Positions 38,472 to 59,103 of a stretch of DNA of 64,000 bases are shown in pieces. The notes under the pieces were generated by a model. That model made no database searches and had not been told where the DNA came from. It saw nothing but the letters and a program-made list of their open reading frames with translations. The translations under genes were made by a program, and so were the position numbers. Every line of letters begins with the position of its first letter. Positions within the stretch are counted from its first letter, which is position 1. The stretch is from NCBI GenBank assembly GCA_003132405.1, contig PKXQ01000057.1:3668-67667 (forward strand), in the 5' to 3' direction. This DNA is from Acidobacteriaceae bacterium (GTDB lineage Bacteria; Acidobacteriota; Terriglobia; Terriglobales; Acidobacteriaceae).

Positions 38472-38624
38472 ATGAAGCAACCTGAATACATCGAAGGCCC
38501 GGAAGCACTCAATAACTTCAAACGGCTTGCGACCGCGATCCTACAGGCTCCAGCGACAAAGAAAAAAACGCAGATTAGGAAACCTCCTTCCGTAAGGAAG
38601 CTGAAGAAATCCGACAGGGACTAG
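38472..38624 (+). CDS. Small IS1595-associated passenger protein
   Basis: A 50-aa protein from ATG 38,472: MKQPEYIEGPEALNNFKRLA, ILQAPATKKKTQIRK and a basic tail. The core EGPEALxNF with a Lys-rich end recalls short proteins found beside IS1595-type transposases. Its stop overlaps the transposase stop tail-to-tail at 38,621-38,624 (CTAG). Role unknown; DNA binding is plausible from the charge. Confidence 0.65.
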   Translation: MKQPEYIEGPEALNNFKRLATAILQAPATKKKTQIRKPPSVRKLKKSDRD

Positions 38625-39769: not shown

Positions 39770-40816
39770 CTATCCAGCCCCCACCCCCGCCTCCCCCCGC
39801 GCCCCCCGTATATCCTTAACATCCCCCATCACAATAATCGCCGCCCCCGCCCGCACCACCAAACTATCCGGAGGATTCACCCACAACTTACCCCCTCCCG
39901 CCCCCGCCCCATGCTTCAGCGCCAGCACCAGCAGATTATGCTTCGAGTGCATCTTTAAATCGCTAAGGTGCTTCCCCTCCCACGGAGAAGCCGCCTCAAT
40001 CTCAATCTCCTCCACCCGCAGCGTCTGCGACTGATCCTTCAACATCAGGTCGAGAAACCCCACCACCTGCGGCCGTATCAACTCACTCGCCATTCTCAGC
40101 CCGCCAATATGGCTAGGCGAGACCGTCGACCGCGCGCCCGCCCGCAACATCCGCTCAGAAAATTTCTGCTCCGCCGCCCGCGCCACAATCCTCAAATTTG
40201 GAAACGCCTGGTGCGCAATCACCGTCACCACCAGATTGTCCTTGTCCTCAGGAAGCGCGGTAATCATCCCCTTAGCATGCTCGATGCCCGCCTTGCCCAG
40301 AACTTCCTCCTCCGTAGCGTCGCCGATCACATACAGCATGTCGCGAAAAAGATCAGCATGAGTCTCGCCCAACTTCTTGATCGACTCTTCCCGCACATCG
40401 ATGACGACATAATGCGTCGCCGTGCGATGCATCTCCTCGGCCACATAACGCCCCGTGTCGCCCATCCCGCAGACAATGTAGTGCCCTCTCAGTTCGCCGA
40501 TTCGCTTCTGCATTCTGCGTCTCCAAAACGGATTCGTCGCCTCAATCTCTACCAGGAACGCCGCCACCACCGAAAACACATACACCGTCACCGCGACCCC
40601 AAACAGCACCACTCCCATGTTGAAGACGCGCAGCGCCGGATTATGCGCCGTCTCCACAATCTCGCCATAGCCCACTCCGGCCAGCGTGATCACGGCCATG
40701 TACAGCGCTTGCAGAAAAGTGACAGAAGGCCCGCCCAGCAAGCGGTAGCCAGCCACGCTAATCGTAAGCAGACTCAGGAATAGAATCGCCGCCGAAATCA
40801 GCCGCCGTCGCAGCAT
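39770..40816 (-). CDS. Two-helix potassium channel with RCK (TrkA-N/TrkA-C) domains
   Basis: A 348-aa channel subunit. It has a first helix (ISAAILFLSLLTISVAGYRL), a pore loop with selectivity filter GVGYGE (variant of TVGYGD) and a second helix (VFNMGVVLFGVAVTVYVFSV). A cytosolic Rossmann RCK domain follows (GHYIVCGMGDTGRYVAEEM, VVIDVREES, VIGDATEEEVL). The C-terminal TrkA-C-like part is VEEIEIEAASPWEGKHLSDL to VVRAGAAIIVMG. It is a ligand-gated K+ channel of MthK type. Its ATG (40,814-40,816) overlaps the stop of the upstream glucosidase gene in the motif TGATG, so translation is coupled. Confidence 0.93.
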   Translation of the reverse strand: MLRRRLISAAILFLSLLTISVAGYRLLGGPSVTFLQALYMAVITLAGVGYGEIVETAHNPALRVFNMGVVLFGVAVTVYVFSVVAAFLVEIEATNPFWRRRMQKRIGELRGHYIVCGMGDTGRYVAEEMHRTATHYVVIDVREESIKKLGETHADLFRDMLYVIGDATEEEVLGKAGIEHAKGMITALPEDKDNLVVTVIAHQAFPNLRIVARAAEQKFSERMLRAGARSTVSPSHIGGLRMASELIRPQVVGFLDLMLKDQSQTLRVEEIEIEAASPWEGKHLSDLKMHSKHNLLVLALKHGAGAGGGKLWVNPPDSLVVRAGAAIIVMGDVKDIRGARGEAGVGAG

Positions 40817-43554: not shown

Positions 43555-44898
43555 TTATCGACCAACAACCTCGCTGACCTTCTGCATCTGCGCCGCAAAC
43601 CGCGGAGCCGAATAAGCCGACGGATCCTGCAATTGCGCAAACAGCCCGTCAATCGCCGCGCGCAACTCACCGCCATTAGCCGGCTTCGCATTAAGGTTGT
43701 ACGCGCGGAACAGCGAATCCAGAGTCATGGCAGCCTGCTCCGCCGTGCGTTCATCCTCAACCGAGATCGCCGCTCCATCGCGAGCAATCCGCCGCATCAA
43801 ACGCAACGTCATCGCCGAATCGTAACCCTGCGCATCGACTTGCTTGACCAACGCGTCCGCCAATGCCGACGCCCGCGTCGCCGACGCCCCAATTTGCTCC
43901 CGCTTGCCATTCAGGTCATTCATCAGCCTCGCCAGCTGGGCGATCTCGTCGTCGAATTGTTTGGCAGTGTCCGGACTGATCTCCTGCACAAGATCGCGGA
44001 ACACAACCACGCGCGATTCATTCCACGGAGGATTGCCCGGGCGCCGGCCAGCGTAACCCCGCTTCTCCCGCCAGCTATCCTCGGGTCGGGTCAGACTGTG
44101 ATGACAGGCAAAACAATCCAGCTCAGCATACTCCGGCCATACCGGGCCATTCGCGCGCCGCGCCAATCGATTGAGCGATTCGCGCAGTTGCACCGCCTGC
44201 CCGACGCCCCACGCCTGCACTTGACGCCAAGGATTACCCTGCTCCGGCATCTTCCAATGTGCCGGCATTACAAGGGTAAACAGCCCCAGCTCAAAAGTCA
44301 GATCAGGATGCCCCGCGGCGATCATCTCGTGACCGACAAATTTTTCCGCCGTGCCGAGATGGCAGGTAAGGCATTTTGCGCTGCGATTCTCCAGATTGCG
44401 CGTGTCATACATCCCCAATTGAACCGACTTCTCGTGCGGCCAATCTTTCGTCGTATGCGGACCAAGCCAGCCCGATGCAGGACCGTGACAGTTTTCGCAG
44501 CTCACTCCATCCGCCAGTTCAAACGTCTCCGCCTGCTGCTCGGGAGGTACGTAGAGCGCGTGACAGGCCAGGCATTTCGGCGATTTCGCCGGCGCTCCAG
44601 TATTCAGAATCGCGCCGATGCGCTGCGAAACCTCATTCTGCAACACGCTGAAAGCTCGCGCGTGCTTGTCTTGCGCGATCCAAATCGTGTACTCATTCTG
44701 AAAAATTCGTGTCGTAGTCTTAGGCTGCACGCTGCCATGGCAACTGCTCGCCGCGCATCCGCCAGGGCCGTTGTATTTCCCGGTCGCGACATTTTTCTCC
44801 GAATAAAGGCCACGCACTCCACTGGTCGGCGTCTGCGCGTAGCTCGAGGCGAGCATCGCGAGCACAAGCCAGCCAGCTGCTACCAATGCCATTCGCAT
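43555..44898 (-). CDS. Periplasmic multiheme cytochrome c (five haem motifs)
   Basis: A 447-aa exported cytochrome with a signal peptide (ALVAAGWLVLAMLASSYA). Four CXXCH motifs are seen (CLACH, CENCH, CLTCH, CFACH) plus one expanded CX4CH (CAASSCH), so up to five c-type haems. The last 150 residues are helical and haem-free. The arrangement recalls the cytochrome c554/NrfB-like family. It is divergently transcribed from the NuoEF-like operon across a 225-bp region and likely receives electrons in the periplasm. Downstream on the same strand are the glucosidase and channel genes, which may simply share a transcript. Confidence 0.88.
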   Translation of the reverse strand: MRMALVAAGWLVLAMLASSYAQTPTSGVRGLYSEKNVATGKYNGPGGCAASSCHGSVQPKTTTRIFQNEYTIWIAQDKHARAFSVLQNEVSQRIGAILNTGAPAKSPKCLACHALYVPPEQQAETFELADGVSCENCHGPASGWLGPHTTKDWPHEKSVQLGMYDTRNLENRSAKCLTCHLGTAEKFVGHEMIAAGHPDLTFELGLFTLVMPAHWKMPEQGNPWRQVQAWGVGQAVQLRESLNRLARRANGPVWPEYAELDCFACHHSLTRPEDSWREKRGYAGRRPGNPPWNESRVVVFRDLVQEISPDTAKQFDDEIAQLARLMNDLNGKREQIGASATRASALADALVKQVDAQGYDSAMTLRLMRRIARDGAAISVEDERTAEQAAMTLDSLFRAYNLNAKPANGGELRAAIDGLFAQLQDPSAYSAPRFAAQMQKVSEVVGR

Positions 44899-45022
44899 TT
44901 CGCCATTCTCTCACCACAAGAATGCGCTGGACGCGATTTCATCAGCCGATTGTTTACACGACGAATTCCCCCATCAACTGCGGCGGAGCGCTCGATCAAT
45001 ACTTGGCGGGATACTATTGGTC

Positions 45023-45064
45023 CATTCCTTCGCAAATGGAATGCACTTTGCTATAGCATTTGCG
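45023..45064. promoter_or_regulatory. Interleaved inverted repeats in the divergent redox promoter
   Basis: CATTCC (45,023-45,028) and GGAATG (45,038-45,043) form one palindrome with a 9-base spacer. CGCAAATG (45,031-45,038) and CATTTGCG (45,057-45,064) form a second with an 18-base spacer. They lie 60-100 bp upstream of the NuoEF-like start and about 125-175 bp from the cytochrome start, a suitable place for a shared regulator. Confidence 0.55.
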
Positions 45065-45123
45065 CCCTCGTCGTCTTAAGGTAAACAAGATTCGCTCACC
45101 TCTTAAACGGAGCCTCTGGAGTC

Positions 45124-46782
45124 GTGTTTGAAGAACTAAGGGCCATCCAACGAGATTTCGGGTACCTACCCGCCGACCGCCTCACGACGCTTGCCGCGAA
45201 AATTAATATCCCCCTAAGCCAAATTCACGCAGTAGCCAGCTTTTATCCGCACTTCCACCTGAGCCCTCCGCCGCGTGTTGACGTGCGTGTGTGTGCCGAC
45301 ATGAGTTGCCACCTCCGCGGAGGTGACCAGGTCCGCTCCGCTCTCGACTCCGCTTTTCAAGGAGCCGACGCAAAAAAGGTTTGCATTCGCGATGTCTCCT
45401 GTCTCGGCAGATGCGATCAGGCCCCGGCGATCATGGTGAATAACAATATTCATTCCCACGTGACAGGGCGCGAAGCCGTCGCGATGATACAAGATGTGCT
45501 CGCAGGCAAACCTTTTCCTGATCGAGGCCATAGCGCAGTACGCATGGCAGTAGCCTCCGATCCTTATAACGGAACAGGCGACTACGCGGTGTTGCGCCGC
45601 TTGGTTGAAACGCGAAACTGGCAGGAGATCATCTCAACCCTGAAAGCCGCCGGCTTGCGCGGCATGGGCGGAGCCGGCTTTCCCACTTCGAGTAAGTGGG
45701 AGTTAGTGCGCAATGCGCCCAGTTACCCGAAATACATCGTCTGTAACGCCGATGAAAGCGAACCCGGCACCATAAAAGACCGCGGCATCATGGAGAATGT
45801 TCCCTATCTGGTAATTGAGGGCATGATCACAGCCGGCCTGGTTACCGGAGCGCAAAAAGGGATCTTGTATATCCGCCACGAATACGAAGAGCCTAAAGAT
45901 ATTCTGCAGCACGAGATCGATCGCTGCTACCAGGAGGGCCTGCTGGGATCGCGAATTCTCGGTAGCGACTTGGCTTTTGATCTGGAAATATTCGTCAGCC
46001 CCGGCGGCTACATCTGCGGCGAGGAGAGTGCTCTGCTCGAGGCCATCGAAGGCAAACGCGCCGAACCCCGAAACAAGCCTCCCTTCCCCGTAACCAACGG
46101 TCTGTGGAACCAGCCCACCGTCATCAATAACGTAGAAACTTTTTGTTTGGCAACCGTGATCCTGGCGCGCGGCGCCGACTGGTATAAGGCGCAAGGCAAG
46201 AATGGTTCGGTAGGAATGAAGTTTGTTGGCGTCAGCGGCGATGTAAATCGCCCCGGTATTTTCGAAGTTCCGATGGGCACGACTTACGACGAACTAATCC
46301 ACGAAAATGCCGGCGGCATTTCTAGCGGAGGGAACTTACTCGCGTTCGCACCCTCCGGACCTTCTTCGGGATATCTACCAGCCTCTTTAGCTAATCTGCC
46401 GCTGGACTGGAACGCGGTCGCGGCGGCCGGCTCGATGGTCGGCTCTGGAGCAATCGTCGTCTGCGCCGAAGGCAGATGTATGTTAGACATGGCGCTCAAT
46501 GCTACTCGTTTCTACCGCAACGAATCCTGCGGTAAGTGCGTGCCCTGCCGCGTGGGCTCTCAAAAACTGGTCGAAATGCTAAAAGGCTGGACCGCGGGAG
46601 TTAGTAACACAGACGACATGCAGCTTCTGGCGGAGCTTTCAACCGCCATGAAGCAGGCATCCATCTGCGGACTCGGGCAGGTGGTACCAGTGCCCATTGC
46701 GTCGGTAATAAAACATTTTCCTAGCACAGTAGAAGAGCACATTGTTAATCACCGCTGTCCGGAAGGCGTTTGCTTCGGTTAG
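45124..46782 (+). CDS. NuoE-NuoF fusion: NADH-oxidising flavoprotein with 2Fe-2S and 4Fe-4S clusters
   Basis: A 552-aa fusion. Residues 1-130 are a NuoE-like thioredoxin-fold domain with Cys57, Cys62, Cys93 and Cys97 (CADMSC...CLGRC), binding a 2Fe-2S cluster. Residues 150-552 are NuoF-like: FMN/NADH site GLRGMGGAGFPTSSKWELVR and CNADESEPGTIKDR, GGYICGEESALLEAIEG, an SLBB segment, and the 4Fe-4S site SCGKCVPCRVGS plus ICGLGQ. This is the electron-input module of Complex I, hydrogenases and formate dehydrogenases, but none of those catalytic partners is adjacent. The start is GTG 45,124 after GGAGCC/GGAG. It should oxidise NADH in the cytoplasm and pass electrons to the next gene product. Confidence 0.93.
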   Translation: MFEELRAIQRDFGYLPADRLTTLAAKINIPLSQIHAVASFYPHFHLSPPPRVDVRVCADMSCHLRGGDQVRSALDSAFQGADAKKVCIRDVSCLGRCDQAPAIMVNNNIHSHVTGREAVAMIQDVLAGKPFPDRGHSAVRMAVASDPYNGTGDYAVLRRLVETRNWQEIISTLKAAGLRGMGGAGFPTSSKWELVRNAPSYPKYIVCNADESEPGTIKDRGIMENVPYLVIEGMITAGLVTGAQKGILYIRHEYEEPKDILQHEIDRCYQEGLLGSRILGSDLAFDLEIFVSPGGYICGEESALLEAIEGKRAEPRNKPPFPVTNGLWNQPTVINNVETFCLATVILARGADWYKAQGKNGSVGMKFVGVSGDVNRPGIFEVPMGTTYDELIHENAGGISSGGNLLAFAPSGPSSGYLPASLANLPLDWNAVAAAGSMVGSGAIVVCAEGRCMLDMALNATRFYRNESCGKCVPCRVGSQKLVEMLKGWTAGVSNTDDMQLLAELSTAMKQASICGLGQVVPVPIASVIKHFPSTVEEHIVNHRCPEGVCFG

Positions 46783-46874
46783 CTGTAGCCAGAATCATGA
46801 GTTATTCAGTTATATGCTAACAACTCGCATACTCGTAAGTTAATCCGTAGTTATAACAAGTGAGTTAAGTAATC

Positions 46875-49055
46875 ATGCCGCCCGACGCAATCGTAGAGAG
46901 ACCGGCCCGTCCAAATAACGTGCAACTGACGATCGACGGAACGCCCGTTTCCGTCCCGCAGGGCACGACTATTTTTGACGCCGCCCGTGCCCATGGCATT
47001 TCCATCCCTACGCTTTGTCATCAGCAGAACGAAAATCCCGTAGGCGTATGCCGAGTTTGCGTAGTCGACGTCGGCCAAAGAGTTTACGCCGCATCATGTG
47101 TCCGTCAAGCCGAACCAGGCATGACCGTCAAAACGAACACCGAACCTGTAGTCGGCGTTCGCAAAACTCTGGTCGAACTGTTGATGTCCGATCATCCTTC
47201 TCCCTGCGCGCGACAGCAGCATTCCGGGGATTGCGAATTGGAGCGCCTAGCCGCGCAAGCTGGACTAGGACAATCGCGCTTTCCGACCCGCACGACGCCA
47301 CGCGGACACGACGATTCTTCGTTAGCCATTCAGGTCGATCACGAATCTTGCATCCTCTGCGACCGCTGCATTCGCGGCTGTGATGACATCCGCAACAACT
47401 GGGTGCTGGCGCGGCGCGGCAAGGGATATCAGGCGGGCATCGCCTTCGATAACAACCTGCCGATGGGGGAATCTTCCTGCGTTTCCTGCGGCGAGTGTAT
47501 GGTCTCGTGCCCCACCGGAGCATTGACCAATCGTGGCGTCGTCAAGAGCCATCTTGAAGGCGATACCGTCGATCCAACTTTTCTTACCGGCCTGCCAGTT
47601 TTTGAGAATGTTTCCGGAACATTTCTCGGCCTCAACCGGAATGCGATCGTAGAGAGGAGGTTTAAGGCGGGAGAGATTATTTGTCGCGAAGGAGAATTTG
47701 GCGCTACCGCTTTCTATATCGTCGACGGCATGGCGGAGGTTTATCTCGCCAGCCCGATTGCTCACGTTAAGACCGAGGGAGGCGCTCGAGGTTTCCTGAG
47801 CAAACTTACCAGCCTGCTTACCTCGCGGGATGAAGACGGGCGCAACGAGGAAAGCACTCGATCTTATATACCTATCGATGCTTCCGTCGATCTCCCTTAT
47901 CGGAGCCCGATCGCCGAGTTAGGTCCCGGCGAACTGTTCGGGGAAATGACCTGCATGAGTTACTATCCCCGTTCGGCCACCGTGCGCGCGAAGACGGATT
48001 GCACTATGCTCGAGATGCTGCGTAACGTTCTCGATATTATGCAGCGTAACAAGACATTCCGCGAGCAACTTGACCGCACTTATAAGAAGCGCGCGCTCGA
48101 TTCACATCTGCGCAGCGTTCCTGTTCTTGCTCCACTAACTGCGGACTTCATCGACCATCTGCGGGAGCACGTCGAGTTACTGCGTTTTCAACCGGGCCAG
48201 GTTATCTGTTCCCAGGGTGAAGTCGCTGACAGCTTTTACCTCGTGCGGCTCGGCTTCGTGAAAGTGTCCCAGCATCGTCCGGGTGGAGACATTGTCCAGG
48301 CGTATCTGGCGCGAGGCTCGTATTTCGGCGAAATGGCCTTTCTCACGGGCACCCCGCGCATGGCCACGTGCACCGCGCTCGACCACGTTGAGGTGGTACG
48401 CATTCCGGGAGACGACTTCCAACTCATGCTCGACCGCTTCCCCGACATCCGGCGGAAGTTGGAAACGGAATCAGCCGAGCATGTCGAACAGAACAGGCAA
48501 AGAGACGCGCAGGTTGCAGATGTCTCCATGGATCAATTCCTCAGTCAGGGCCTCATGGAAGCGCAGAGTTTGCTCATTCTTGACCTGGATCGTTGCACCC
48601 GCTGCGACCAATGCGTGCGCGCCTGCGCCGATGCCCATGACGGAGTGAGTCGGTTGATTCGTGAAGGCCTCCGCTTCGACCGTTATCTGGTCGCGACCTC
48701 ATGCCGCCAATGCCGCGATCCCCTCTGCATGGTGGGTTGCCCAGTGGGATCGATTCGCCGCCGCAATTCTCTCGAAGTGATCATTGAGGACTGGTGCATT
48801 GGTTGCGGCCAGTGCGCCAATAATTGTCCGTACGGAAACATCAATATGCATCCCTTCCCTGTCGAGATCGACGATCTGTTGCATCCGGGAAGAACCGTCG
48901 CCAGTGTGAAGGTGAAAGCGACATCCTGCGATCTTTGTTTGGGTCACGCAGAACCGAGTTGTGTGTACGCGTGCCCGCATGATGCCGCACATCGCGTAAA
49001 CCCGCCGGAATTTTTCGGCGGCTTGCTCAAGCGACAGAAGATAGCGAAACAGTAG
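46875..49055 (+). CDS. Giant iron-sulfur protein with two internal cyclic-nucleotide-binding domains
   Basis: A 726-aa protein of unusual layout. Residues 15-100: plant-type 2Fe-2S ferredoxin (Cys48, 59, 62, 75). Residues 105-125: NuoG-like His/Cys motif (HPSPC...C). Residues 155-215: two 4Fe-4S motifs (CILCDRCIRGC, CVSCGECMVSCP). Residues 250-400 and 420-545: two cyclic-nucleotide-binding beta-rolls (FKAGEIICREGEFGATAFYI, GELFGEMTCMSYYPRSATV; FQPGQVICSQGEVADSFYLV, GSYFGEMAFLTGTPRMATCT). Residues 570-715: DmsB-like ferredoxin with four further cysteine clusters (CTRCDQCVRAC, CRQCRDPLCMVGC, CIGCGQCANNC, CDLC...CVYAC). It probably wires NADH electrons from the NuoEF-like protein to the membrane subunit, gated by a nucleotide or other ligand. 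Confidence 0.9.
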   Translation: MPPDAIVERPARPNNVQLTIDGTPVSVPQGTTIFDAARAHGISIPTLCHQQNENPVGVCRVCVVDVGQRVYAASCVRQAEPGMTVKTNTEPVVGVRKTLVELLMSDHPSPCARQQHSGDCELERLAAQAGLGQSRFPTRTTPRGHDDSSLAIQVDHESCILCDRCIRGCDDIRNNWVLARRGKGYQAGIAFDNNLPMGESSCVSCGECMVSCPTGALTNRGVVKSHLEGDTVDPTFLTGLPVFENVSGTFLGLNRNAIVERRFKAGEIICREGEFGATAFYIVDGMAEVYLASPIAHVKTEGGARGFLSKLTSLLTSRDEDGRNEESTRSYIPIDASVDLPYRSPIAELGPGELFGEMTCMSYYPRSATVRAKTDCTMLEMLRNVLDIMQRNKTFREQLDRTYKKRALDSHLRSVPVLAPLTADFIDHLREHVELLRFQPGQVICSQGEVADSFYLVRLGFVKVSQHRPGGDIVQAYLARGSYFGEMAFLTGTPRMATCTALDHVEVVRIPGDDFQLMLDRFPDIRRKLETESAEHVEQNRQRDAQVADVSMDQFLSQGLMEAQSLLILDLDRCTRCDQCVRACADAHDGVSRLIREGLRFDRYLVATSCRQCRDPLCMVGCPVGSIRRRNSLEVIIEDWCIGCGQCANNCPYGNINMHPFPVEIDDLLHPGRTVASVKVKATSCDLCLGHAEPSCVYACPHDAAHRVNPPEFFGGLLKRQKIAKQ

Positions 49056-49089
49056 TTAATAACTCGTATAAGTAGCGAGATAAAGACCA

Positions 49090-50010
49090 TTGCGCATCGA
49101 TCAGACACATCGAACGTGGTTCATAGGCACTATGGCCGGAGTGTTAGTCGCTGCAGTAATCTATGTTCCCTACACCCTCACTTCGCCGGAGGGAGCGAAC
49201 GGCGGCACCGCTGTCGGCCTGGTTTATGGGAGTCTCGCCTCCGCCTGCATGCTCTTCGCGGGGCTGCTGGGAGCGCGCAAGAAGGTTCCTATCTGGCGCA
49301 TAGGTCGCGCACAGACCTGGATGCGCGGCCATCTTTGGTTGGGCTTCGTTAGTTTTCCGTTAATACTCTTCCACTCCGGCTTCCGCTTCGGCATCGGACT
49401 TACTAGGGCTTTGATGTGGCTATTAGTGGTGGTATTTGCTAGCGGAATCGTAGGAGCAATACTGCAACATTTTATGCCGCGACTTACTACCGAGCGGATT
49501 CCTCTTGAAACTATTTATGAACAAATCGGACGAGTGCGTTTGCAACTTGTCGCCGAAGCCCAGACCGTGATCGACGAAGTTTCTGCTGCGCTAGCCGGAA
49601 ATGTTTCGCAAGCCACCGCACAACAGCGTGCTGCATCGGCGAGCGCCGGCACCATGGGCGGCGTCACCGTCGCATCCGGCTTGCAGGTGGATGAAGGGGC
49701 CAGCGCCCAGCTTCAGGAGTTTTTTCGCCGCGAGATGCAGCCCTATGTCGCGAATGGCGGATCGCGGGGCATGCCGCTCGCCGATCGCAGTCGCTCGCAA
49801 AGCATGTTCCAGCAACTGCGTTTGCTGTTGCCGCCAAATCTGCATCCCGCGATCGAGGACCTAGAAAACATTTGCGAAGAGAAACGCGAACTCGACCGGC
49901 AAGTGCAGTATCACCGCATTCTGCACGGCTGGTTGCTTGTGCATATCCCTGCTTCCTACGCCCTCCTGTTGCTGGGCGCAGTGCACGCTGTAATGGCGCT
50001 GCGCTACTGA
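49090..50010 (+). CDS. Membrane subunit with cytochrome-b-like histidines
   Basis: A 306-aa inner-membrane protein. Helices are seen at WFIGTMAGVLVAAVIYVPYT, VGLVYGSLASACMLFAGLLG, HLWLGFVSFPLILFHSGFRF, ALMWLLVVVFASGIVGAILQ and, at the C-terminus, WLLVHIPASYALLLLGAVHA. Paired histidines in helices 3 and 5 (RGHLW...FHSGF; HRILHGW...VHIP...VHA) could ligate two b-type haems across the membrane. A 140-residue soluble insert lies between helices 4 and 5. The start is TTG 49,090; ATG 49,131 is an alternative but would trim helix 1. Likely the quinone or electron-transfer membrane link of this cluster. Gap to the decaheme gene is 9 bp. Confidence 0.75.
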   Translation: MRIDQTHRTWFIGTMAGVLVAAVIYVPYTLTSPEGANGGTAVGLVYGSLASACMLFAGLLGARKKVPIWRIGRAQTWMRGHLWLGFVSFPLILFHSGFRFGIGLTRALMWLLVVVFASGIVGAILQHFMPRLTTERIPLETIYEQIGRVRLQLVAEAQTVIDEVSAALAGNVSQATAQQRAASASAGTMGGVTVASGLQVDEGASAQLQEFFRREMQPYVANGGSRGMPLADRSRSQSMFQQLRLLLPPNLHPAIEDLENICEEKRELDRQVQYHRILHGWLLVHIPASYALLLLGAVHAVMALRY

Positions 50011-50019
50011 GAGAGGACA

Positions 50020-51399
50020 ATGGCGCGGCGCATACGCACAACCAAGAATCTCGCCAAGCGGATGGACTTGCAGTATTTCAAGAAGCCCCATCCCTTACGC
50101 AGATGGCGGCACTGGTTGTCCATTCTGGTCCCACTCGTTGCTATCGGATGGTTCGCGCTCCAGCGCGCCAACAGCCAGAAGATCTACAGCAGCGGACCGC
50201 TCTCGGCGGCACACGCCGTGTTAGGAAAGCAATGCAACATCTGCCATGTAACTAAGCTCGGGTTCTTTCGCGCCGCAGTTAGTGATGATGCCTGTGCAAA
50301 ATGCCACGACGCTCCCGCGCATCATCCCGACAAAGTTACTCATAAAGTAAGTTGCGCTTCGTGCCACGTAGAGCATCGAGCTTCCCCTCGATTGGCGAGC
50401 ACAGATGATTCAAGTTGTACCCAGTGTCATGCCAACTTACTAACTAGGAGCGGCAGCTCGCAGTTTGAGCGCGTCGTGAAAGATTTCGACAAACAGCATC
50501 CGGAGTTTGCAGCGTTACGTCCTGGCGGCACTGATCCGGGCCAGATCAAGCTAAATCACTACGCGCACCTGCGTCCCAATCTCGCCGGACCGTCGGGTCC
50601 GGTGCAAATGGATTGTCAGGACTGCCACCGGCTGACGGCCATGAACAGTAGCTGGCCATATTCCATCCCTGACTCGGCGCCTAAGCCTCTTCCCGTTGCA
50701 GGCCGCACGGATGCGGACATGAGACATCCTCGCTCTCGCGATTACATGTCGCCGATTCTCTACGTCAGTCAATGCGCCGGATGTCACGTGAAAGACCTGC
50801 AGTTCGACAAGCGCTTCGATCAAGCTGCGCCGCATGACAAGCCAGAAGCTGTTCAGGCATTTTTGGTTCAGAAATACAGCGATTACTTCGCGACGCATCC
50901 GCGAGCGCTCTCTGAAGCAGTAGCTCCGGAGCGGATTTTGCCCGGCGCGACTATCTCGGTCAACATGAATCTGCCGCTACCGGTTCCGCGCACCCGCCAG
51001 GAATGGATCGATCAGCAAGTCATGCTGGCCGATCGATTGTTATTCGACAAAGGCTGCAAACTCTGCCACGTAATGATTGAAGGTAACGGGTCACTGCCAA
51101 CGGTTACGAAGTCCTCGATTCCGTCGCGTTGGTTCCTCCACGCCGAATTCAGCCACGACTCCCATCGCTTATTAACCTGCACGGCGTGTCACGACCGGAC
51201 TCCCGAAAGCCGCCAAACCGCCGACATCCTGCTTCCCAGCATCGCATCCTGCCGCAGTTGCCACGAGGACAACGGGCCGCAACACGATGCCGCCAGCGGT
51301 CGCTGTTCCGAGTGCCACGCCTACCACGATTGGATCAAAGAACAGCCTAGCAAGGGGAACTTCACCATCCCAGAATTGCGAGCCGCCGCGTTCAGGTAG
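50020..51399 (+). CDS. Membrane-anchored decaheme cytochrome c
   Basis: A 459-aa cytochrome with a single N-terminal helix (HWLSILVPLVAIGWFALQRA) and exactly ten CXXCH motifs: CNICH, CAKCH, CASCH, CTQCH, CQDCH, CAGCH, CKLCH, CTACH, CRSCH and CSECH. The anchor implies attachment to the inner membrane facing the periplasm, as in NapC/CymA-like or MtrA-like relays, though the haem count matches MtrA. It is the last gene of the plus-strand operon and ends 8 bp from the convergent LVIVD cytochrome gene. It should take electrons from the membrane subunit. Confidence 0.92.
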   Translation: MARRIRTTKNLAKRMDLQYFKKPHPLRRWRHWLSILVPLVAIGWFALQRANSQKIYSSGPLSAAHAVLGKQCNICHVTKLGFFRAAVSDDACAKCHDAPAHHPDKVTHKVSCASCHVEHRASPRLASTDDSSCTQCHANLLTRSGSSQFERVVKDFDKQHPEFAALRPGGTDPGQIKLNHYAHLRPNLAGPSGPVQMDCQDCHRLTAMNSSWPYSIPDSAPKPLPVAGRTDADMRHPRSRDYMSPILYVSQCAGCHVKDLQFDKRFDQAAPHDKPEAVQAFLVQKYSDYFATHPRALSEAVAPERILPGATISVNMNLPLPVPRTRQEWIDQQVMLADRLLFDKGCKLCHVMIEGNGSLPTVTKSSIPSRWFLHAEFSHDSHRLLTCTACHDRTPESRQTADILLPSIASCRSCHEDNGPQHDAASGRCSECHAYHDWIKEQPSKGNFTIPELRAAAFR

Positions 51400-51407
51400 C
51401 TTCCGGA

Positions 51408-54400
51408 TCAGCGCGTGGGCCCCGGTGGACTATCCGTAACCGTGTAGAGTTGCCCATCGCGGAGATACATGCGCTGCATTTCCTGCTGATTGAATGGGCG
51501 CGCGCCGCGCCGTCCGAGCACCGCTACTTGATTGCCGCTTTCATCAACTGCGCGATCCCGATCGATGCCCTTCGATACAGCTAGCGCCGGACCACGCGTG
51601 TGGTGAGTCGCGATCAGCTTGGGAGTGGGGCGCGGGCTGAATCCAGAGAAGTTGGGATTGTCGGTGGGCGAAAATAACTGAACAACGCGCAGTCCGTTCT
51701 TGCCATCGGCCACGTAGGCGAACAGTTCCGATGAGACCATGCCGAGTTTGGCGTCGTTCACGTCATTCAGGGCGCCGTCGGCGTTGAAGATCTGATCGAG
51801 CTTTGGCTGCTCGGGATGTTCAACGTCCACAATAGCCAATCCCTGCTTGCCCGCAGAAACGTACGCGTAGGTGCGCGCAACGTACACATTACGCGCATCG
51901 GCCAGTGGAACCTGCGCCCCCGGAACCGGCACCGGCCGGTCGAGATGAGTTATATCCAGAACCTTGAGTCCTTGACCATCTACCACGAAGGCGTAACGGA
52001 ACTGCACTGCGATTCCTCGCGGCTCGACAAGAAAAGGCGCGCCAACCTGCGCCACTAGTTCGGGCTTAAGTGGATTGTCGAGACTCACCACGGCCAAGCC
52101 TGCATCGCAAAGAATGTAGGCATAAGTCCCTGCGATTGCGATCTTGCGTGCTCCCTTGAGCGCACCATTGGGATTGAAAGCCAAAGCACGTTTAAGAAAA
52201 TTATTGCTGGGATCGCCGTCGAGCAACGTGCCGACCCCAGGACTCTGACCCTTAAGATTGGGATCGCCAATTACGACTAAACCTTCTTCCTTGTCCGCGA
52301 CAAAGAGAAACCCATAGATGAGATGAATCGGCTGTTCTTCATTTTCCGGCCGGTGCGTGCGCAACGGATCGACACCGAGGGTCGTCGGAGTAGCCACAGC
52401 CATCGCATATTTTGTGGGCACATAAAAGCGCTGCCCCAGCGGTGAAACCGGCGCAGTAATCGTGCGTTGAGAAATATCTTTGTCGTCGACATTCGCAATG
52501 TCATAAACACGCAGGCCGCCCCTTCCCATCGCCGCGTAAAGATATTCGCCCCGCGCCTGCACATCCAGAACATCCGACCCGCCGTGCCCGTACGCTTCTT
52601 TCAGTTCACGATTGTTTTTTACGTGCTTGCTGTAGTCGTCTGGATACGCGAGCTTTTGCAGATCACTTCCGATGACTGCGGGAGGCTCGTCATGAACGGT
52701 CACCGCAACGGCTTCGTATCCGTGGCTTCCCGTCGCCACGTAAACGTAGCGGCCCATAAAGTTCATAAAGTTTGTGCCGAGCAGGAGTAACTGCGTCAAC
52801 CAGGCATTGTTGTCGCCGGCCGTCGAGACATGACAATCAGTGCAACCCTTAGTCTCACGCGCGCGCACCGTATGCGGCACGAAGGTGCTGAACGCCTGCC
52901 CGCTGAAACCTTCGGCGGAAATCGTCTGCTGTTGGTAATAAATCCAGTCGCGATTGTTGTTCTGCGAACTAACCAACACAGCACATGCCGACCGCACCGG
53001 GGCGACCCGATGACCTGTGACTGTGCCATCAATGGCAAGACTAAACACATCGTCGCGCAGCACCTGAAAGTTGTAGGAGGTCCAATTGCGCGTCGTCAGC
53101 CCTTCGTTGTGCAGCATCGGCATCTTCTGATTCGCCGTCATCGAAAGATGGCAGCCATAACAAGTCGGAGCCCATGAACTATGGCATGCATAACACGTCA
53201 TCCGGCTATTCTGGTGCGCCAGTTGCGATGGATCCCCATTCGCGCTTCCCCACGTGCTTCCATCCTTCTGAATCGTCTTAGCGAGCCGCGATTTCTCGCT
53301 GTAATGCGCATTCCCAGGAGTAATCGAATCGATAACCTGCACCACTTCCCACTGCCGATCTTTTTCCAGCATCGAACGCTGAAACAGCCGATCTCCCTCC
53401 CAATAGAAACGCCGCCCGCCCCAAGGCGTGCGCAATCGATCAAGCGCAGTTCCACCGTTAGGCGCGGCGATGCCCGAGGTCCGCAGCGTCGCTCGTTGCT
53501 CGATCGTGCCGTGACAATCCACGCAGTCGACCTCGATCGCGTTCCGGGTCTCTCCATACAATTTTCCATTGCCGTGACTGTCCTGCTCAAAGTGGCAATC
53601 GATGCAATGCATTCCCTTTTCCAGATGAATATCTTTCAGGTGCACAGCCTTCGTGAATTTGTCCGGATCATCGAACGAAACCTGCTTATCTTCCGCATCG
53701 AGAAGATTGCCTTGGCGATCATGCTTGAAGACCGCGCGAAAAATCCATCCGTGACTATGAAAGTCGGCAAACTGTGTATTCTTGAGGCTCTTATTAAATT
53801 CCGGCGTCCCCGTCTTTTCGAGGAAATCCACATCGGACCATAAACCGCGAATTGCAGCCCGCTCTGGATTGCGCGTCTGAATCTCCTGCTGTTCCTTCGC
53901 ACTCGGATATCGTTGCTCCTTCGGATACATCTTGTCGCCGTCGATCTCGTTATCCCACCAGGTGTAGCCAAAATAAGTTGCCACCATGTTGGTGCCAGGA
54001 TGAATGTGGCAAACAATGCACTGGCTCGACGGAATGGATCGGGTGAACTCGTGGCGAATCGGATGGCCGGGCTCATTCCTCGGGATGGTCGGATCGGCAG
54101 TTGCGCTCTGCCCCAAATTTCCCGCTGCCGAATAATGTCCAGAATGTTCGGCCGAACGATCGTTGGCGTAGATCACGTGACAAGCGCTGCATCCGCTGGC
54201 GCGATAATCACCGGGTTGATCGTTGGTTCCCGGAAACGACAGCAGAGGATCGAGCAAGCGCGTTTTTTGCAAGCCGAGCACAGTAGGGTCTGTGCGCAAT
54301 AGCGTGCCAAAGCCGCGCTCGCCGAGTTTGACATCTGGCTTTCCCGGTTGTTCGTCAAGGCTAGGTATCCCGACTTCAGGTTTTTTTTCACCACCGCGCT

Positions 54401-55178
54401 CGAAAACTCGCAACACATTGCCCGGCTGCGAGACCTCCCACCGCTCGATCGGTTCGAGGTAAGGGAGAATGCCTTTAGTGCGCGTCTCTTCCGCAGTCGG
54501 CGGCGGAAAGGTTTGCAATCTCTGCGGCTTTCCATCCGCGGTATAGCTCTCGCCAAAGAAAGGATTCTTCAGCGGCACCGCGCCGTTGTTATAAAGCGCC
54601 GCGCCCCACAGCATCGCGCCGTGCGTCATCATGCTAGTCCGCACGCGCTGCACCTCTGCACCATGACAACCGGACCGGCCACAAGTTTGCTCGGCAACTC
54701 GCAAATCGCCAGGGTTTACAAACTTGACGTAATCCGCGTCTTCCTTCAACCACTGCGTATAAGCGCGAACCGGGTTGGCCGACGATCGAGCATTCTCCGC
54801 AAACCGAGGCCGCGGATGAGCCTGTCCGATCAATTCCTGATATTGCGGCGACGCTTGCGCAACGCCCGTCGGCAGCACGATCTGCGGATTTCCCCCATGG
54901 CAGTCAGTACAACCCACACGCACGGTTCCGGTGGTGTGCATGGTCGCGCTGTCCATGGTATTATGGCAACTTACGCAACCCGCCGATTTCCCCTGCGCTT
55001 CGTCGAGCGAGTCTCCAAGGCCCGGCGAGCTTGGCTCAGCATTGGCTTGTGCCGACGATCCCGCATCACGTTCTGACGCCGAAGTTCTGGCCAAAACATC
55101 AAACACCGCCGACGCCGCGCAGATAATCGCCGTCACGAGCAAGACTTGCGCGAAGCGTCGACCCGAACAAATACGCAT
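51408..55178 (-). CDS. Large decaheme cytochrome with C-terminal LVIVD beta-propeller
   Basis: A 1256-aa exported protein with an N-terminal signal/anchor ([19 protein letters not shown]). The first 800 residues contain nine CXXCH motifs (CVSCH, CTDCH, CSACH, CIVCH, CIDCH, CVDCH, CYACH, CYGCH, CTDCH) and one CX4CH (CGRSGCH), ten haem sites in all. The last 430 residues are LVIVD-type repeats, e.g. [54 protein letters not shown], predicted to form a beta-propeller. The protein could sit at the outer membrane or cell surface with the propeller as a docking or substrate domain. It is 10 bp downstream of the barrel gene in the same operon. Confidence 0.9.
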
Positions 55179-55187
55179 AGCATTAGT

Positions 55188-57359
55188 TCAAAACGTCAGC
55201 CGAATGGTGGTGAAGCCGGAGATTAACACGCGTTTGTTGAAGATTTCCTCAAACCCTGCGCCCGGAAGCAAGTTTGATACTCCCGCCGTAATCACAATGT
55301 TCTCGGTCAATGGCGGACGATACTGCACCCCCATTCCGCTATCCGTTCCAATACTGTGCCGAATTCCCGGTTGTGCCAGCACGATTTGCAATGGCTCCGT
55401 GCGATCAAATCTCAGGTAGTTTGCATTCACGAAAGCGCGCAGCTTGGGAGTCACATTAAAATCGGCGCCCGCATTGAATACATAAGCCCCAGGGTTCACA
55501 AAGTTCGCCTGCCCTTCCTCCTTATTAGTACGCAAGCTCACCAGCAAGCTGCCCGGATTCGCGAGCGCAATTCCCGTGCCCGTCAGTCGAATGCCTTGCT
55601 GATCGAAGAAGCTGAACGCTCCACCGGCGAAATTCGTTTCATCCACAATCGTATCGAAACCGCGAGCGCTCGAACTGCGGCCGCCTCCAAGCGCATCCGA
55701 CTGATTGCTCGGATCCCCCGATGCGTAAAAAAACGACGACCGGAATCGCACCCAATCTTTATCCACCGACAATTCCAGCGCCGCCATTCTCCCATCGATG
55801 TCGATGCGGCGTCCCGCAATCGGATTGAGCGTGTCATGGCCCAGCGCCTGATAAAACGCATGGCTAACATTCAGGCGGCCAATGTGGCCGTTGCTGGCCC
55901 AACCAAGATAGTAGGCATGAATACCGTGCGGCTCAATTAGCCCGACAGGCGCAGGACGCACCAGAAATCCATTGTCGTCATAGTGAATTGAGGGATCGTC
56001 GCGGTTGTAATGAAAACTGAATTCCGTGGTATAGCCCTTGGCAAAGAAATCCTGTATGTACACATTCCCCACGTAAACCTGTTGATGACGCGGCTCAAAA
56101 GTATTCAATCCGCTGTTCGTGTTCTTCTCCAGAAAATAAAACCATGCCAAGTTGTAGTTAATGCGGTTCGAACGCAGATTGCCGAAGATGCGAACGCCAG
56201 GCTGCTCCTCAGCAAAAATAAAGCCGCGAAAATCGCTGACAAATTGCTGAATGCCCGCCCGTACGGAAACGAAATCAAAATTCGGGCTAAGGTCGTGCAG
56301 TTTGGCCTCGACAAATCCCTCCTGCAAACCGGCATGCGTGTCGAAGCGATTGGTCCCGTCGCGGACGTCAACATTAACCAGCCCGCGCTCGCGCGTTTGC
56401 AGAAAATTGAGATTGAATTCCGGCGTGAAACGTATGCGGAAATCAATGGGCCGAAAACTAGTGTCGCCTTCGAAGAGATCAAAAGAGAGCCGAAAACTCT
56501 GCGAGGCAAACGCCTGCTCGCCGCGGCCAAAGAAGTTAGAGCTGCCTCCTTGCTCAGCCGATACACCGCTCGGCACTGGCAAGCGACGCACATCCAACCC
56601 TGTGATGCTGGTCCCCGTGAAATTAAAGAACCATCGCTGTCCCCACTTTGTACCAAAAATCGGCTCGTCTCCCTTGAGGCGGCTGCGATTGAACGGATCG
56701 TACCAATGGCCCTTCGTATAGGGAAACTCTCCGCCCTTGCCATAGCGATCCCACGCCGGCAGCGGAACATTCCAGCGGTCGGGATCTTTCGCAAAATTTG
56801 CGGAGTCCGGCGGAAGTTGCTCAGGAGAGATCCCAAGCGGCCCCGGAGAAGACGGCGTTTCGCCAGTTCGCAATCCGGGATACGTACTAGCCGGCACAGG
56901 TGGACTCACTTGTGACGAAACCGCAGCGCCCGGCACTCCAGACGGTCCTTTAGTCGCCGAGGTCGCGCCAGCAATCGGCTCCAACTCCAGATCCTCCACC
57001 TCCGCGTCCTTGATTTCGAGACCGGATAAACCGAGCGCCTCAAATCCTTCCTTCTCCGCCTTGAGTTCGTAGCTCCCAGGCGTAAGGTCAGTGAAGCGGA
57101 AAATGCCCTCAGCATCCGTAGTTTTTTCGCGAACCACAGCACCAGCTCGAAGTAAAGTAATTCTGACTCCCGGAATGCCCAAGTGACTCCGCCGATCTCT
57201 CACCGTTCCTTGCAGCGATGTAGTGTTGATGGGCTCGTGGCCTGGGATTCGTTGCGTTTGCCCCAACACCGTAACTTGAAGCGCAACCAGACACAGAAGC
57301 ACCGATCGAGAAGTCCACGCCTTCATCACCGGTAACATTCTCGCCAGGTCAATCCTCAT
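55188..57359 (-). CDS. Outer-membrane beta-barrel with N-terminal carboxypeptidase-regulatory-like domain
   Basis: A 723-aa protein with a signal peptide (SRSVLLCLVALQVTVLG). A CarboxypepD_reg-like Ig domain lies at about residues 48-125 (TSLQGTVRDRRSHLGIPGVR, TTDAEGIFRFTDLTPGSYEL). A Ser/Pro-rich linker follows, then a long barrel of alternating strands ending FNKRVLISGFTTIRLTF, with terminal aromatic Phe. No TonB box or plug is evident, so it looks like a porin-type conduit. ATG 57,359 is used; TTG 57,365 and ATG 57,326 are alternatives. It is the first gene of the operon with the 1256-aa decaheme cytochrome, which suggests a porin-cytochrome pair. Confidence 0.8.
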   Translation of the reverse strand: MRIDLARMLPVMKAWTSRSVLLCLVALQVTVLGQTQRIPGHEPINTTSLQGTVRDRRSHLGIPGVRITLLRAGAVVREKTTDAEGIFRFTDLTPGSYELKAEKEGFEALGLSGLEIKDAEVEDLELEPIAGATSATKGPSGVPGAAVSSQVSPPVPASTYPGLRTGETPSSPGPLGISPEQLPPDSANFAKDPDRWNVPLPAWDRYGKGGEFPYTKGHWYDPFNRSRLKGDEPIFGTKWGQRWFFNFTGTSITGLDVRRLPVPSGVSAEQGGSSNFFGRGEQAFASQSFRLSFDLFEGDTSFRPIDFRIRFTPEFNLNFLQTRERGLVNVDVRDGTNRFDTHAGLQEGFVEAKLHDLSPNFDFVSVRAGIQQFVSDFRGFIFAEEQPGVRIFGNLRSNRINYNLAWFYFLEKNTNSGLNTFEPRHQQVYVGNVYIQDFFAKGYTTEFSFHYNRDDPSIHYDDNGFLVRPAPVGLIEPHGIHAYYLGWASNGHIGRLNVSHAFYQALGHDTLNPIAGRRIDIDGRMAALELSVDKDWVRFRSSFFYASGDPSNQSDALGGGRSSSARGFDTIVDETNFAGGAFSFFDQQGIRLTGTGIALANPGSLLVSLRTNKEEGQANFVNPGAYVFNAGADFNVTPKLRAFVNANYLRFDRTEPLQIVLAQPGIRHSIGTDSGMGVQYRPPLTENIVITAGVSNLLPGAGFEEIFNKRVLISGFTTIRLTF

Positions 57360-57441
57360 CGCCAAATGGAGTTGCTTCTGATAGCCCGCATCAGATCGGG
57401 CCTAACACCTATCACAACCACAACTCGGGAGCAAGCCTTGC

Positions 57442-57513: not shown

Positions 57514-59103
57514 ATGAAGACCAGAACGGAAAATCATTTTCCTGTGAGGCTTTCTGCATTCTCTCTCATGCTTTGTGCGACAGCGCTGTTCTCGATATCC
57601 TGCGGCAGCGGATCTTCCTCGACGAGTTCGCCTGACCCTCCACCACCCGCAGCAACGCCGCTCAGCATCACAGACGTAACTAACGTGGTTCAAAACGCCG
57701 TAACGTCGGTGAATGCTCCCATGGTAGTCGCGGTTGCCGACCGCGCCGGAAATATTCTCGCCGTATTTGAAACGCCGGGAGCCCCAACCATCGCGACAGG
57801 AAATTTTGGTCAGACAGTGCCAGCCGATGAACTAGCCGTCAGCCTCGCGCGTACGGCAGCCTTGTTTAGCAATGATCAGGCTCCGCTTTCTTCCCGCACC
57901 GTCCGCTTCATCAGCGGCGTTCATTTTCCACCCGGAGTCGCCGGCACTCCCAACGGTGATCTCTACGGCATAGAAAATACCAATCGCGGCTGCACGCTAA
58001 GCACAAACTACCTCCCCGGTCACGGATTGAATCCCTCTCTGTCGATCGATGGTTCCAGCTTCGGCCTCGGCATCATTACGGGCAAAGCCGACACCAACGA
58101 CAGCAATCCGCTGGCAGTCAATCCCGGCGGCGTGCCTTTGTTCAATGGCGGAGCAGTCGGCGGCGTGGGCGTCGTCAGCACATCTCCGGCGATCGCCGAA
58201 TACGCTGCCTATTCGGGCGCGATGAATTCAGGTTTGCTGCCTACACCGGCTCAGCTTCCGCCGCCAGGCGTCGTCATCGTCGGCGGAGTCGCGTTGCCTT
58301 TCGTCGCTCAAACAACGCAACCGGCGGGCACTTCGCCCGGTACCTTCGCGGGCTCGTACAGTGTCCCCGCAACGACCGGCACGCTTCCGCCCGAAGGATA
58401 CCTGGTCGGTCCAAATGCAGGCACGGCGCTCTCGCAGAATGACGTCAGTGAAATCATTGCGAATGCCGTAGCAACCGCGAACCTAACGCGAGCCGTCATT
58501 CGCCTGCCCCCAGGCTCGCGCACAAAAATGACGATCGCCGTCTCCGATCTCGACGGCACGCTTCTCGGCCTCTATCGCATGCACGATGGAACGGTATTCA
58601 GCGCCGACGTGGCGGCCACGAAAGCCCGCAACGTGATCTGGTTCAGCACGACCGGAGTGCGGGATTTGCCCGGCATTCCAACGAGCACGGCAGTCACGAA
58701 TCGCACCGTAGGCTTCGGAACCCAGCCCATGTTCCCCCCCGGCATCGACGGCTCTGGCGCGGGGCCATTTTTTCCTCTATATCTTTACGACATCGCCAAC
58801 CCTTGCACGCAGGGATCGGAAGGCGGCTCCGCGAACACAAACAACATGAGCGGAGTCGTCTTTTTCCCCGGCAGCCTGCCCCTCTATCAAAATGGCGTTC
58901 TGGTCGGCGGCTTGGGCGTTAGCGGAGACGGCGTCGATGAAGATGACTTCGTCACTGCGGGAGCAGTGAATGCCGCCTGCGGATCGGGCGGCCCCTGTGG
59001 TATTCCTGATTTTCAGGCGCCCGTAAATATCCGCGCCGATCAAGTCGTGATCGACAACGTGCGCCTGCCCTACCTGAAGTTCCCGCGAAATCCAACCGAG
59101 TGA
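57514..59103 (+). CDS. Lipoprotein with duplicated GlcG/HbpS-like haem-binding domain
   Basis: A 529-aa lipoprotein. The signal ends LMLCATALFSISCGSGSSS (lipobox Cys about residue 30). Two GlcG/HbpS-like (DUF336-type) domains follow. The first is at about residues 50-250 (ITDVTNVVQNAVTSVNAPMV, VAVADRAGNILAVFETPG). The second is at about residues 310-510 (LSQNDVSEIIANAVATANLT, TIAVSDLDGTLLGLYRMHDG). Each ends in a glycine-rich GGVGVVS/GGLGVSGDG strand. This fold binds haem or cobalamin-like tetrapyrroles in some members. Being next to a large cytochrome cluster, haem capture or delivery at the surface is a possible role. Its stop abuts the start of a decayed gene. Confidence 0.8.
   Translation: MKTRTENHFPVRLSAFSLMLCATALFSISCGSGSSSTSSPDPPPPAATPLSITDVTNVVQNAVTSVNAPMVVAVADRAGNILAVFETPGAPTIATGNFGQTVPADELAVSLARTAALFSNDQAPLSSRTVRFISGVHFPPGVAGTPNGDLYGIENTNRGCTLSTNYLPGHGLNPSLSIDGSSFGLGIITGKADTNDSNPLAVNPGGVPLFNGGAVGGVGVVSTSPAIAEYAAYSGAMNSGLLPTPAQLPPPGVVIVGGVALPFVAQTTQPAGTSPGTFAGSYSVPATTGTLPPEGYLVGPNAGTALSQNDVSEIIANAVATANLTRAVIRLPPGSRTKMTIAVSDLDGTLLGLYRMHDGTVFSADVAATKARNVIWFSTTGVRDLPGIPTSTAVTNRTVGFGTQPMFPPGIDGSGAGPFFPLYLYDIANPCTQGSEGGSANTNNMSGVVFFPGSLPLYQNGVLVGGLGVSGDGVDEDDFVTAGAVNAACGSGGPCGIPDFQAPVNIRADQVVIDNVRLPYLKFPRNPTE

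Follow-up and report, generated by a model that had tools for sequence, protein, structure and literature searches.

Introduction

Whether seven adjacent genes, encoding a NADH dehydrogenase module, an iron–sulfur protein, a membrane protein, three multiheme cytochromes c and a candidate outer-membrane barrel, form a single route by which electrons leave the cell, and how such a route would be fed and controlled, is the question raised by a 64-kb stretch of DNA (positions 3,668 to 67,667 of contig PKXQ01000057.1, assembly GCA_003132405.1; hereafter the window) from an Acidobacteriaceae bacterium whose draft genome (5.7 Mb, 158 contigs) is 88.8% complete. Soils and peat harbour Acidobacteriota in large numbers, and for many of the multiheme cytochromes of this phylum the substrate is described as unknown (PMC8100337). 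A preliminary description of the locus had interpreted the seven genes as a conduit from NADH to the outer membrane; all seven open reading frames (ORFs) were confirmed, and the ORF strands bear out its statement that the barrel operon is convergent with the other one, the gene of the "pentaheme" (C554-type) cytochrome being divergent from NuoEF.

The interpretation favoured here, with modest confidence, is that the genes specify a line for exporting electrons across the cell envelope, with NADH as its source and a cyclic nucleotide controlling its gate. The NuoE–NuoF fusion (NuoEF) would oxidise NADH and deliver electrons to the HoxU-like N-terminus of the iron–sulfur protein, hereafter the relay protein, whose cyclic-nucleotide-binding (CNB) domains lie between its input clusters and a four-cluster output ferredoxin; binding of a nucleotide supplied by a nearby CHASE2-cyclase would open (or close) this path. 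The inner membrane would be crossed via two b hemes on two H-x13-H pairs, in much the way that NADPH oxidases and ferric reductases do it, with quinone probably bypassed at this membrane, after which the decaheme and pentaheme cytochromes would pass electrons to the barrel-associated propeller cytochrome and on to an outside acceptor, which may be Fe(III)/Mn(IV), humics or another cell. Gene content and its conservation, the joint occurrence of the parts, their domains and invariant ligands, the linkage of a cyclase, and the module swaps and fusions are observed; the direction and order of the flow, its gating, the quinone bypass, the location of the proteins and the acceptor we infer.

By established bioenergetics, electrons run downhill from NADH (about -0.32 V) to an acceptor outside, and the charge that passes through a two-heme wire follows the membrane potential, which is also the case in NADPH oxidase. 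Since electrons would exit along the membrane potential with no energy conserved there, a role as a regulated redox valve or as an assimilatory or respiratory metal reductase is to be expected; for the same reason a gate would be expected, and the CNB domains would supply it. Known extracellular electron transfer lines are controlled mainly by gene expression, and an NADH-fed, nucleotide-switched line would, if correct, represent a new principle, namely a bacterial counterpart of the regulated NADPH oxidases that spans two membranes, from which precise predictions follow, including nucleotide binding and a quinone-independent reduction of c hemes by NADH. More tentatively, and at somewhat less than an even chance in our estimate, the locus may belong to a first class of second-messenger-gated electron wires, in which the nucleotide made by the cluster-borne CHASE2-cyclase directly switches a ferredoxin relay, NAD(P)H electrons bypass quinones via a NOX-like two-heme core and a barrel–propeller pair to the exterior, and the chassis is fitted, in other Acidobacteriota, with at least three NAD(P)H input arrangements and with FHA/kinase-type control.

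Distribution and modularity of the gene set

When 200 related genomes, the source genome among them, were searched with the relay protein at E ≤ 1e-60 and with the propeller cytochrome at E ≤ 1e-40, the same 27 genomes contained both and the remaining 173 neither (Fisher p 5e-34, uncorrected for kinship). Within the window's genus, eight of 24 genomes carry both and 16 carry neither, which limits the effect of kinship. The two genes lie on different contigs in G012 and G115 and more than 40 kb apart in G076. The identical lists refute the notion that inner and outer genes never co-occur, which the preliminary description had named as fatal to its own interpretation, and they support a functional coupling of the two sets.

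Conservation of the neighbourhood was followed in 146 loci selected by relay or propeller homology, so that the bait is present by construction; 20 were set aside because they duplicated or nearly duplicated another locus, as judged by an identical stretch of 80 residues at the centre of one protein, a filter that also removed a few close but distinct genomes, e.g., L112. The unique loci include the relay protein in 106 cases and the propeller cytochrome in 81. All 42 unique relay stretches longer than 21 kb contain NuoEF, the membrane protein and the decaheme cytochrome, with the C554 cytochrome in 39, the propeller cytochrome in 29 and the barrel in 24; all seven genes are present in 23 of them, so the neighbourhood that the preliminary description had proposed to look for does recur in other genomes. 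Where long stretches have no local propeller cytochrome (14 cases), it is found elsewhere in the genome for 11, the exceptions being L102, L133 and L138. Gene order varies while the parts stay together: the C554–propeller–barrel genes are divergent from NuoEF–relay in Rokubacteria (L121, L124, L130), and the order is changed in L066, L067, L072, L087 and L110. Chance adjacency of two operons was considered and is ruled out by the identical distribution combined with these rearranged yet co-located orders.

A scan of the collection confirmed 267 relay relatives, the best 80 of which are nearly all from Acidobacteriota, together with three Rokubacteria, one Methylomirabilota, one Rhodanobacteraceae and one Actinobacteria record; the closest named relative is an Acidobacteria metagenome-assembled genome (MAG) record at 85% identity. 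The relay loci in the Rhodanobacteraceae and Actinobacteria MAG records (L129, L135) suggest either transfer or mis-binning.

Several results count against an obligatory pairing of the inner and outer parts. The propeller cytochrome is missing from the genomes of L102, L133, L138 and L135, and in a phylum sample of 386 genomes, at the thresholds applied, the relay protein occurs in 23, the propeller cytochrome in 41 and both in 15, which leaves eight genomes with the relay only (the match being confined to the HoxU-like part in two of them, G433 and G455) and 26 with the propeller only. Among 20 of these 26 that were examined, the barrel adjoins the propeller cytochrome in 19 (the other, L174, is a short contig); a distant CNB–ferredoxin relay lies alongside in nine (L161, L163–L166, L170–L173), and 11 show no relay in the stretch, some of them having other multiheme genes. 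These partners indicate that the outer pair is a module working with more than one inner partner. Furthermore, in 20 of the 106 unique relay loci NuoEF is absent together with the N-terminal domain that corresponds to it, and such input-less loci, taken with an outer pair that has other partners or none nearby, indicate that the chain is modular. The electron-chain interpretation of the preliminary description has held as regards the coupling of the parts, but the phylum sample speaks against a strict seven-gene unit, and the CNB switch, the H-x13-H pairs and the cyclase had been overlooked.

A propeller–barrel pair with no relay in the stretch was observed in L159 (G289), G316 and G356, which are 3.7-Mb two-contig genomes, and other multiheme genes (4 to 9 CxxCH) stand beside the pair, likewise with no relay in the stretch, in L162, L167, L168 and L176.

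Proposed NAD(P)H input

The NuoE–NuoF fusion combines the FMN/NADH-binding 51K fold with the NuoE [2Fe-2S] and NuoF [4Fe-4S] centres, and its occurrence follows that of the HoxU-like N-terminus of the relay protein: 84 of the 106 unique relay loci have both, 20 have neither, and the two mismatches (L135, L136) are short contigs with the N-terminus alone. In six genomes (L231–L236), the place of the relay N-terminus is taken by an unrelated FAD/NAD(P)H oxidoreductase domain, which forms one protein with the tandem-CNB part (four of the six were scanned and match Pyr_redox_3 at E 3e-34 to 7e-42), and the gene for this fusion adjoins those for the membrane protein, decaheme cytochrome, barrel and propeller cytochrome; in G444 and G521, the FAD/NAD(P)H domain is fused to an FHA–octaheme–ferredoxin protein. 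The presence of unrelated pyridine-nucleotide dehydrogenases in one position is the strongest sign that NAD(P)H would be the donor. The direct NADH input claimed at the outset is supported both by the NuoEF module and by its exchange for an unrelated domain.

NuoE, NuoF and the HoxU/NuoG-like N-terminus are homologous to their counterparts in HoxEFU, the N-module of complex I and group A [FeFe] hydrogenases, from which the present system differs in that tandem CNB domains and a further ferredoxin follow the HoxU-like part in one polypeptide. All three components are recognised by Pfam and NCBIfam, with scores below the equivalogue cut-offs, which marks them as a homologous module and not as a complex I subunit set. 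As the preliminary description had stated, the Pfam matches of the seven proteins include no molybdopterin, hydrogenase or nitrite-reductase catalytic domain, and no hydrogenase or quinone/proton-pumping subunit is found among those of the seven proteins and two tested neighbours; a hidden catalytic reductase was not seen by eye among the ORFs listed for eight relatives' loci, where no family search was made. One relay locus without the NADH module, L054 (G097), has a hydrogenase-like or complex I-like gene run about 1.4 kb beyond its C554 gene, past a recombinase gene and of the membrane-bound type by eye.

The same anatomy would also serve electron uptake from an outside donor, such as Fe(II) or another cell, for the reduction of NAD+, and MtoAB-type conduits are known to work in this direction. 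We consider such a reversal very improbable: by established bioenergetics, a simple two-heme wire would have to carry electrons strongly uphill to bring them from potentials like that of Fe(II) to NAD+ in opposition to the membrane potential, and the cluster has no proton pump to drive this.

Relay protein and proposed cyclic-nucleotide switch

If electrons are exported from NADH as proposed, control would reside in the relay protein, in which Pfam delineates a HoxU/NuoG-like N-terminus, tandem CNB domains and a C-terminal four-cluster ferredoxin. PF00027 matches in three stretches (2.8e-39), and the tandem CNB region (residues 342–521) resembles the structure of a PKA regulatory subunit (3of1, E 8e-28). 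At about residues 109–125, the NuoG/HoxU-type N5-like site reads HPSPCARQQHSGDCELE, as it does in the aligned orthologues having this part; relative to the NuoG-type motif, one canonical Cys is missing.

The strict CNB cassette, sought as the phosphate-binding motif GE ... R.A[TS] and counted without the partial relay proteins of L166, L170, L172 and L195, occurs twice in 73 of the 86 NuoEF-type relay proteins, once in 12 and not at all in one, so that these proteins appear to carry the cassette of cyclic-nucleotide-regulated proteins. Retention on this scale speaks against an ungated line, in which the CNB domains would be structural or bind another ligand and the cyclase would be an unrelated neighbour. 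An ungated line would better suit the 17 relay proteins that lack an input domain (some of these being fragments), of which four have two cassettes, three have one and ten have none, and this degeneration implies that gating is not universal.

The proposed source of the nucleotide is a protein with a CHASE2 domain (residues 39–422, E 3.3e-64) and a Guanylate_cyc domain (residues 524–704, E 4.2e-28), encoded 8.2 kb from the C554 gene by one of the two class III cyclase genes of the window genome. Linkage was assessed in 25 genomes, comprising 23 of the 27 system genomes together with G541 and G530 (the window genome was searched separately, and G064, G109 and G115 were left out). A cyclase domain is present in all 25, and in 15 the relay or propeller gene has one no more than 15 kb away, sometimes on one side of the cluster and sometimes on the other, compared with 0.41 genomes expected under random placement. 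The CHASE2-cyclase protein itself (E ≤ 1e-40, paralogues included) is found in 22 of the 27 genomes with the system, and in the window's genus it occurs in seven of the eight genomes with the system and in none of the 16 without it. The linkage and the distribution within the genus speak against an unrelated neighbour; what weakens the case for gating by this enzyme is that no cyclase is linked at this distance in ten of the 25 genomes and that the family also occurs in 36 of the 173 genomes without the system. Overall, we regard an ungated line as rather unlikely and retain the nucleotide-gated export line.

Regulation appears to recur in other forms in other lineages, as FHA domains are found on the decaheme cytochrome in L170 and on the relay protein in L055, where a Ser/Thr kinase gene occurs in the same locus. 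The combination of an FHA relay protein and a Ser/Thr kinase gene seen in L055 is also present in L197 (G171), and control by phosphorylation is possible in both.

Proposed crossing of the inner membrane

The cytochrome-b-like histidines of the preliminary description take a definite form in the membrane protein, as H81, H95, H285 and H299 are invariant in 74 of 74 aligned sequences and two H-x13-H pairs are present in all 100 unique free-standing homologues. A double pair of this kind characterises the core of NADPH oxidases and ferric reductases. The pairs would lie in membrane helices, of which the third (residues 79–99) falls under the hydropathy threshold (19-residue mean ≥ 1.6) and remains a reading by eye. 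The window protein has no Pfam match at E ≤ 0.01, Ferric_reduct (PF01794) not being reported for it at cut-off, and no useful relative was found among solved structures. Weak family matches among the 74 members are divided between DUF4405 (39), cytochrome b561 (14) and Ferric_reduct (13, best 4.5e-4), and since they are weak and mixed, the likeness lies in the ligand pattern and not in family membership. In four genomes (L161, L163, L164, L165), the relay and the membrane protein form a single polypeptide.

The membrane protein is accordingly proposed, from its conserved ligands, as a two-heme-b transmembrane wire. It would share with the NADPH oxidase/FRD family the two transmembrane pairs, an input from pyridine nucleotides and external regulation, and it differs in that a separate iron–sulfur relay would serve as input and c-type cytochromes as output.

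A further issue is whether the quinone pool takes part. The inner-membrane entry proteins of known extracellular conduits are described as quinol oxidases (PMC6295460), and a membrane protein exchanging with quinone would make the cluster an energy-conserving NADH/quinol branch comparable with the CymA, CbcL and ImcH conduits. Two observations weigh on that side and against a quinone bypass: the resemblance of the membrane protein, in 14 of 74 members, to cytochrome b561, a family with quinone-reactive members, and a weak resemblance of the decaheme cytochrome to the menaquinone reductase protein QrcA, which scores 28.6 bits where the cut-off is 180. A quinone-linked chain is nevertheless judged unlikely, given the complete NADH module upstream, the fusion of the relay ferredoxin to the membrane protein in four genomes, and the sufficiency of two H-x13-H pairs for a heme-to-heme path.

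Proposed periplasmic cytochromes and outer-membrane pair

Beyond the proposed wire, the three cytochromes hold 25 heme sites in total by motif count. The 447-aa C554 cytochrome, which begins with a hydrophobic, signal-peptide-like segment and is proposed as a periplasmic carrier, does have the five sites implied by its designation as pentaheme, but only four are CxxCH and one is CX4CH. The ten CxxCH motifs of the decaheme cytochrome are all invariant in 27 of 27 aligned orthologues, and comparison with solved structures gave weak matches to several c7/HAO-type cytochromes. The membrane anchor previously attributed to this protein was not recovered, its hydropathy being under the threshold, and stands as a by-eye reading; the protein is perhaps periplasm-facing with an N-terminal anchor. 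Similarly, the ten sites and LVIVD repeats of the propeller cytochrome were found as described, except that one of the sites is CX4CH and nine are CxxCH; no relative with a solved structure was found at E ≤ 0.01, and the protein is proposed to be an outer-membrane or surface cytochrome.

The barrel and propeller genes lie on the same strand in all 67 unique loci that are uncut there, with a gap below 300 bp in 63; the other 14 of the 81 propeller loci are cut within 2.5 kb on the barrel side. PF13620 and a C-terminal Phe are present in 23 of 23 barrel orthologues and the Alginate_exp barrel family is matched in two, and in L161 and L163–L165 the N-terminal domain of the barrel is replaced by four CxxCH motifs, giving a tetraheme fusion whose tetraheme part scored as a class III cytochrome in L161. 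The assignment as a barrel draws on this C-terminal Phe, the Alginate_exp matches and the tetraheme fusion, which also hints indirectly that a cytochrome may sit within the barrel. Against it stands a weak strand count, with 26 segments compared with 21.2 ± 2.4 in shuffled sequences (maximum 27). The signal peptide of the barrel is likewise a by-eye reading under the hydropathy threshold, and its match to solved structures covers the small N-terminal domain only.

Comparison with known conduits

Like the Mtr and Pcc systems (MtrCAB, OmcB-type), the cluster combines multiheme cytochromes with an outer-membrane barrel in a proposed crossing of the envelope; it differs from them in its direct NADH module, propeller cytochrome and CNB relay. 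MtrB_PioB (PF11854) gave no match at E ≤ 1 in the 23 barrel orthologues and is absent from the window genome, while among ten other genomes one (G530) has it elsewhere; membership of the MtrB type was rejected on these results. The seven proteins also have no Pfam match to NapC/NirT (CymA-type) at E ≤ 0.01. The preliminary description had likewise spoken of an Mtr/porin-cytochrome-like logic with different protein families.

The Geobacter ext cluster (extHIJKLMNOPQS) offers a partial likeness, as residues 515–786 of the propeller cytochrome resemble ExtM residues 258–504. The scores are far below the equivalogue cut-offs for ExtM (89 against 800 bits), ExtN (39.4 against 200) and ExtO (39.2 against 200), and Ext membership was rejected on these grounds. 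According to its published description, the ext cluster comprises a porin, several cytochromes, an iron–sulfur protein and a b-type cytochrome (PMC5877670); it is described with a Rieske protein, a bc-type cytochrome b and a rhodanese, which this cluster does not have, and without the NuoEF, CNB and LVIVD genes found here.

The ExtM cluster has been linked to selenite/tellurite reduction (PMC5877670), and the partial ExtM resemblance, together with the 1256-aa length, the unusual CX4CH heme site and the LVIVD repeats, might suggest that the propeller cytochrome itself serves as terminal reductase (or oxidase) for one particular substrate at or beyond the outer membrane and is only passed or anchored by the barrel, which would make the system a substrate-specific reductase and not a general wire. 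The propeller cytochrome matches no known catalytic family and has no solved-structure relative at E ≤ 0.01, and the outer pair is found with a range of inner modules, as a generic module would be, so that a dedicated respiratory enzyme seems an improbable alternative to the export line.

Clusters of multiheme cytochromes with a barrel, proposed to reduce metal oxides, have been described in marine Acidobacteriota and Thermoanaerobaculum aquaticum (PMC8528874); the section describing them mentions no NADH module or cyclic-nucleotide switch, unlike this cluster, and the barrel–multiheme cluster reported there may share the propeller–barrel outer pair. Among the papers listed by searches of the open-access PMC subset, none was recognised as describing the NADH–CNB–wire combination. 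The present system would resemble the Mtr, Pcc and Ext conduits in its working, yet none of the membership tests made places it among them; should the proposed gating prove true, that feature would be of a new kind.

Gene inventory and neighbouring features

The features of the locus are compiled in the table. The barrel ORF begins at a TTG start in the ORF list (57365), with an in-frame ATG at 57359. Neither a gathering-score Rfam match anywhere in the window nor promoter or terminator signals above chance level were found.

Table. Genes of the proposed export line and two associated genes (window coordinates).
Feature	Position	Strand	Length and matches
C554-type multiheme cytochrome c	43555..44898	(-)	447 aa; PF13435 E 5.6e-11
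NuoE–NuoF fusion	45124..46782	(+)	552 aa; PF01257, PF01512, PF10531, PF10589
Switch/relay (iron–sulfur) protein	46875..49055	(+)	726 aa; PF13510, PF10588, PF00027, Fer4 families
Membrane protein	49090..50010	(+)	306 aa; H81-x13-H95, H285-x13-H299
Decaheme cytochrome c	50020..51399	(+)	459 aa; PF14522 8.3e-14, PF14537 2.6e-11
Propeller cytochrome, decaheme with C-terminal LVIVD repeats	51408..55178	(-)	1256 aa; PF08309 1.4e-20
Proposed outer-membrane beta-barrel	55188..57365	(-)	725 aa; CarboxypepD_reg at the N-terminus
CHASE2 sensor–class III adenylate/guanylate cyclase	32971..35322	(+)	783 aa
HbpS-like lipoprotein-like protein	57514..59103	(+)	529 aa; PF03928 1.9e-18

Between the cyclase and the cluster lies a transposase gene (38621–39658) that is IS1595-like by eye, with a zinc-ribbon/DDE look. 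A K+ channel/TrkA-N gene and a large putative sugar-hydrolase-like (GH63) gene, both in 39770–43521, adjoin the cluster here and in many relatives and may be linked with it, and the HbpS-like gene on the other side is a recurrent neighbour, being present in 41 of the 106 unique relay loci, distant lineages included.

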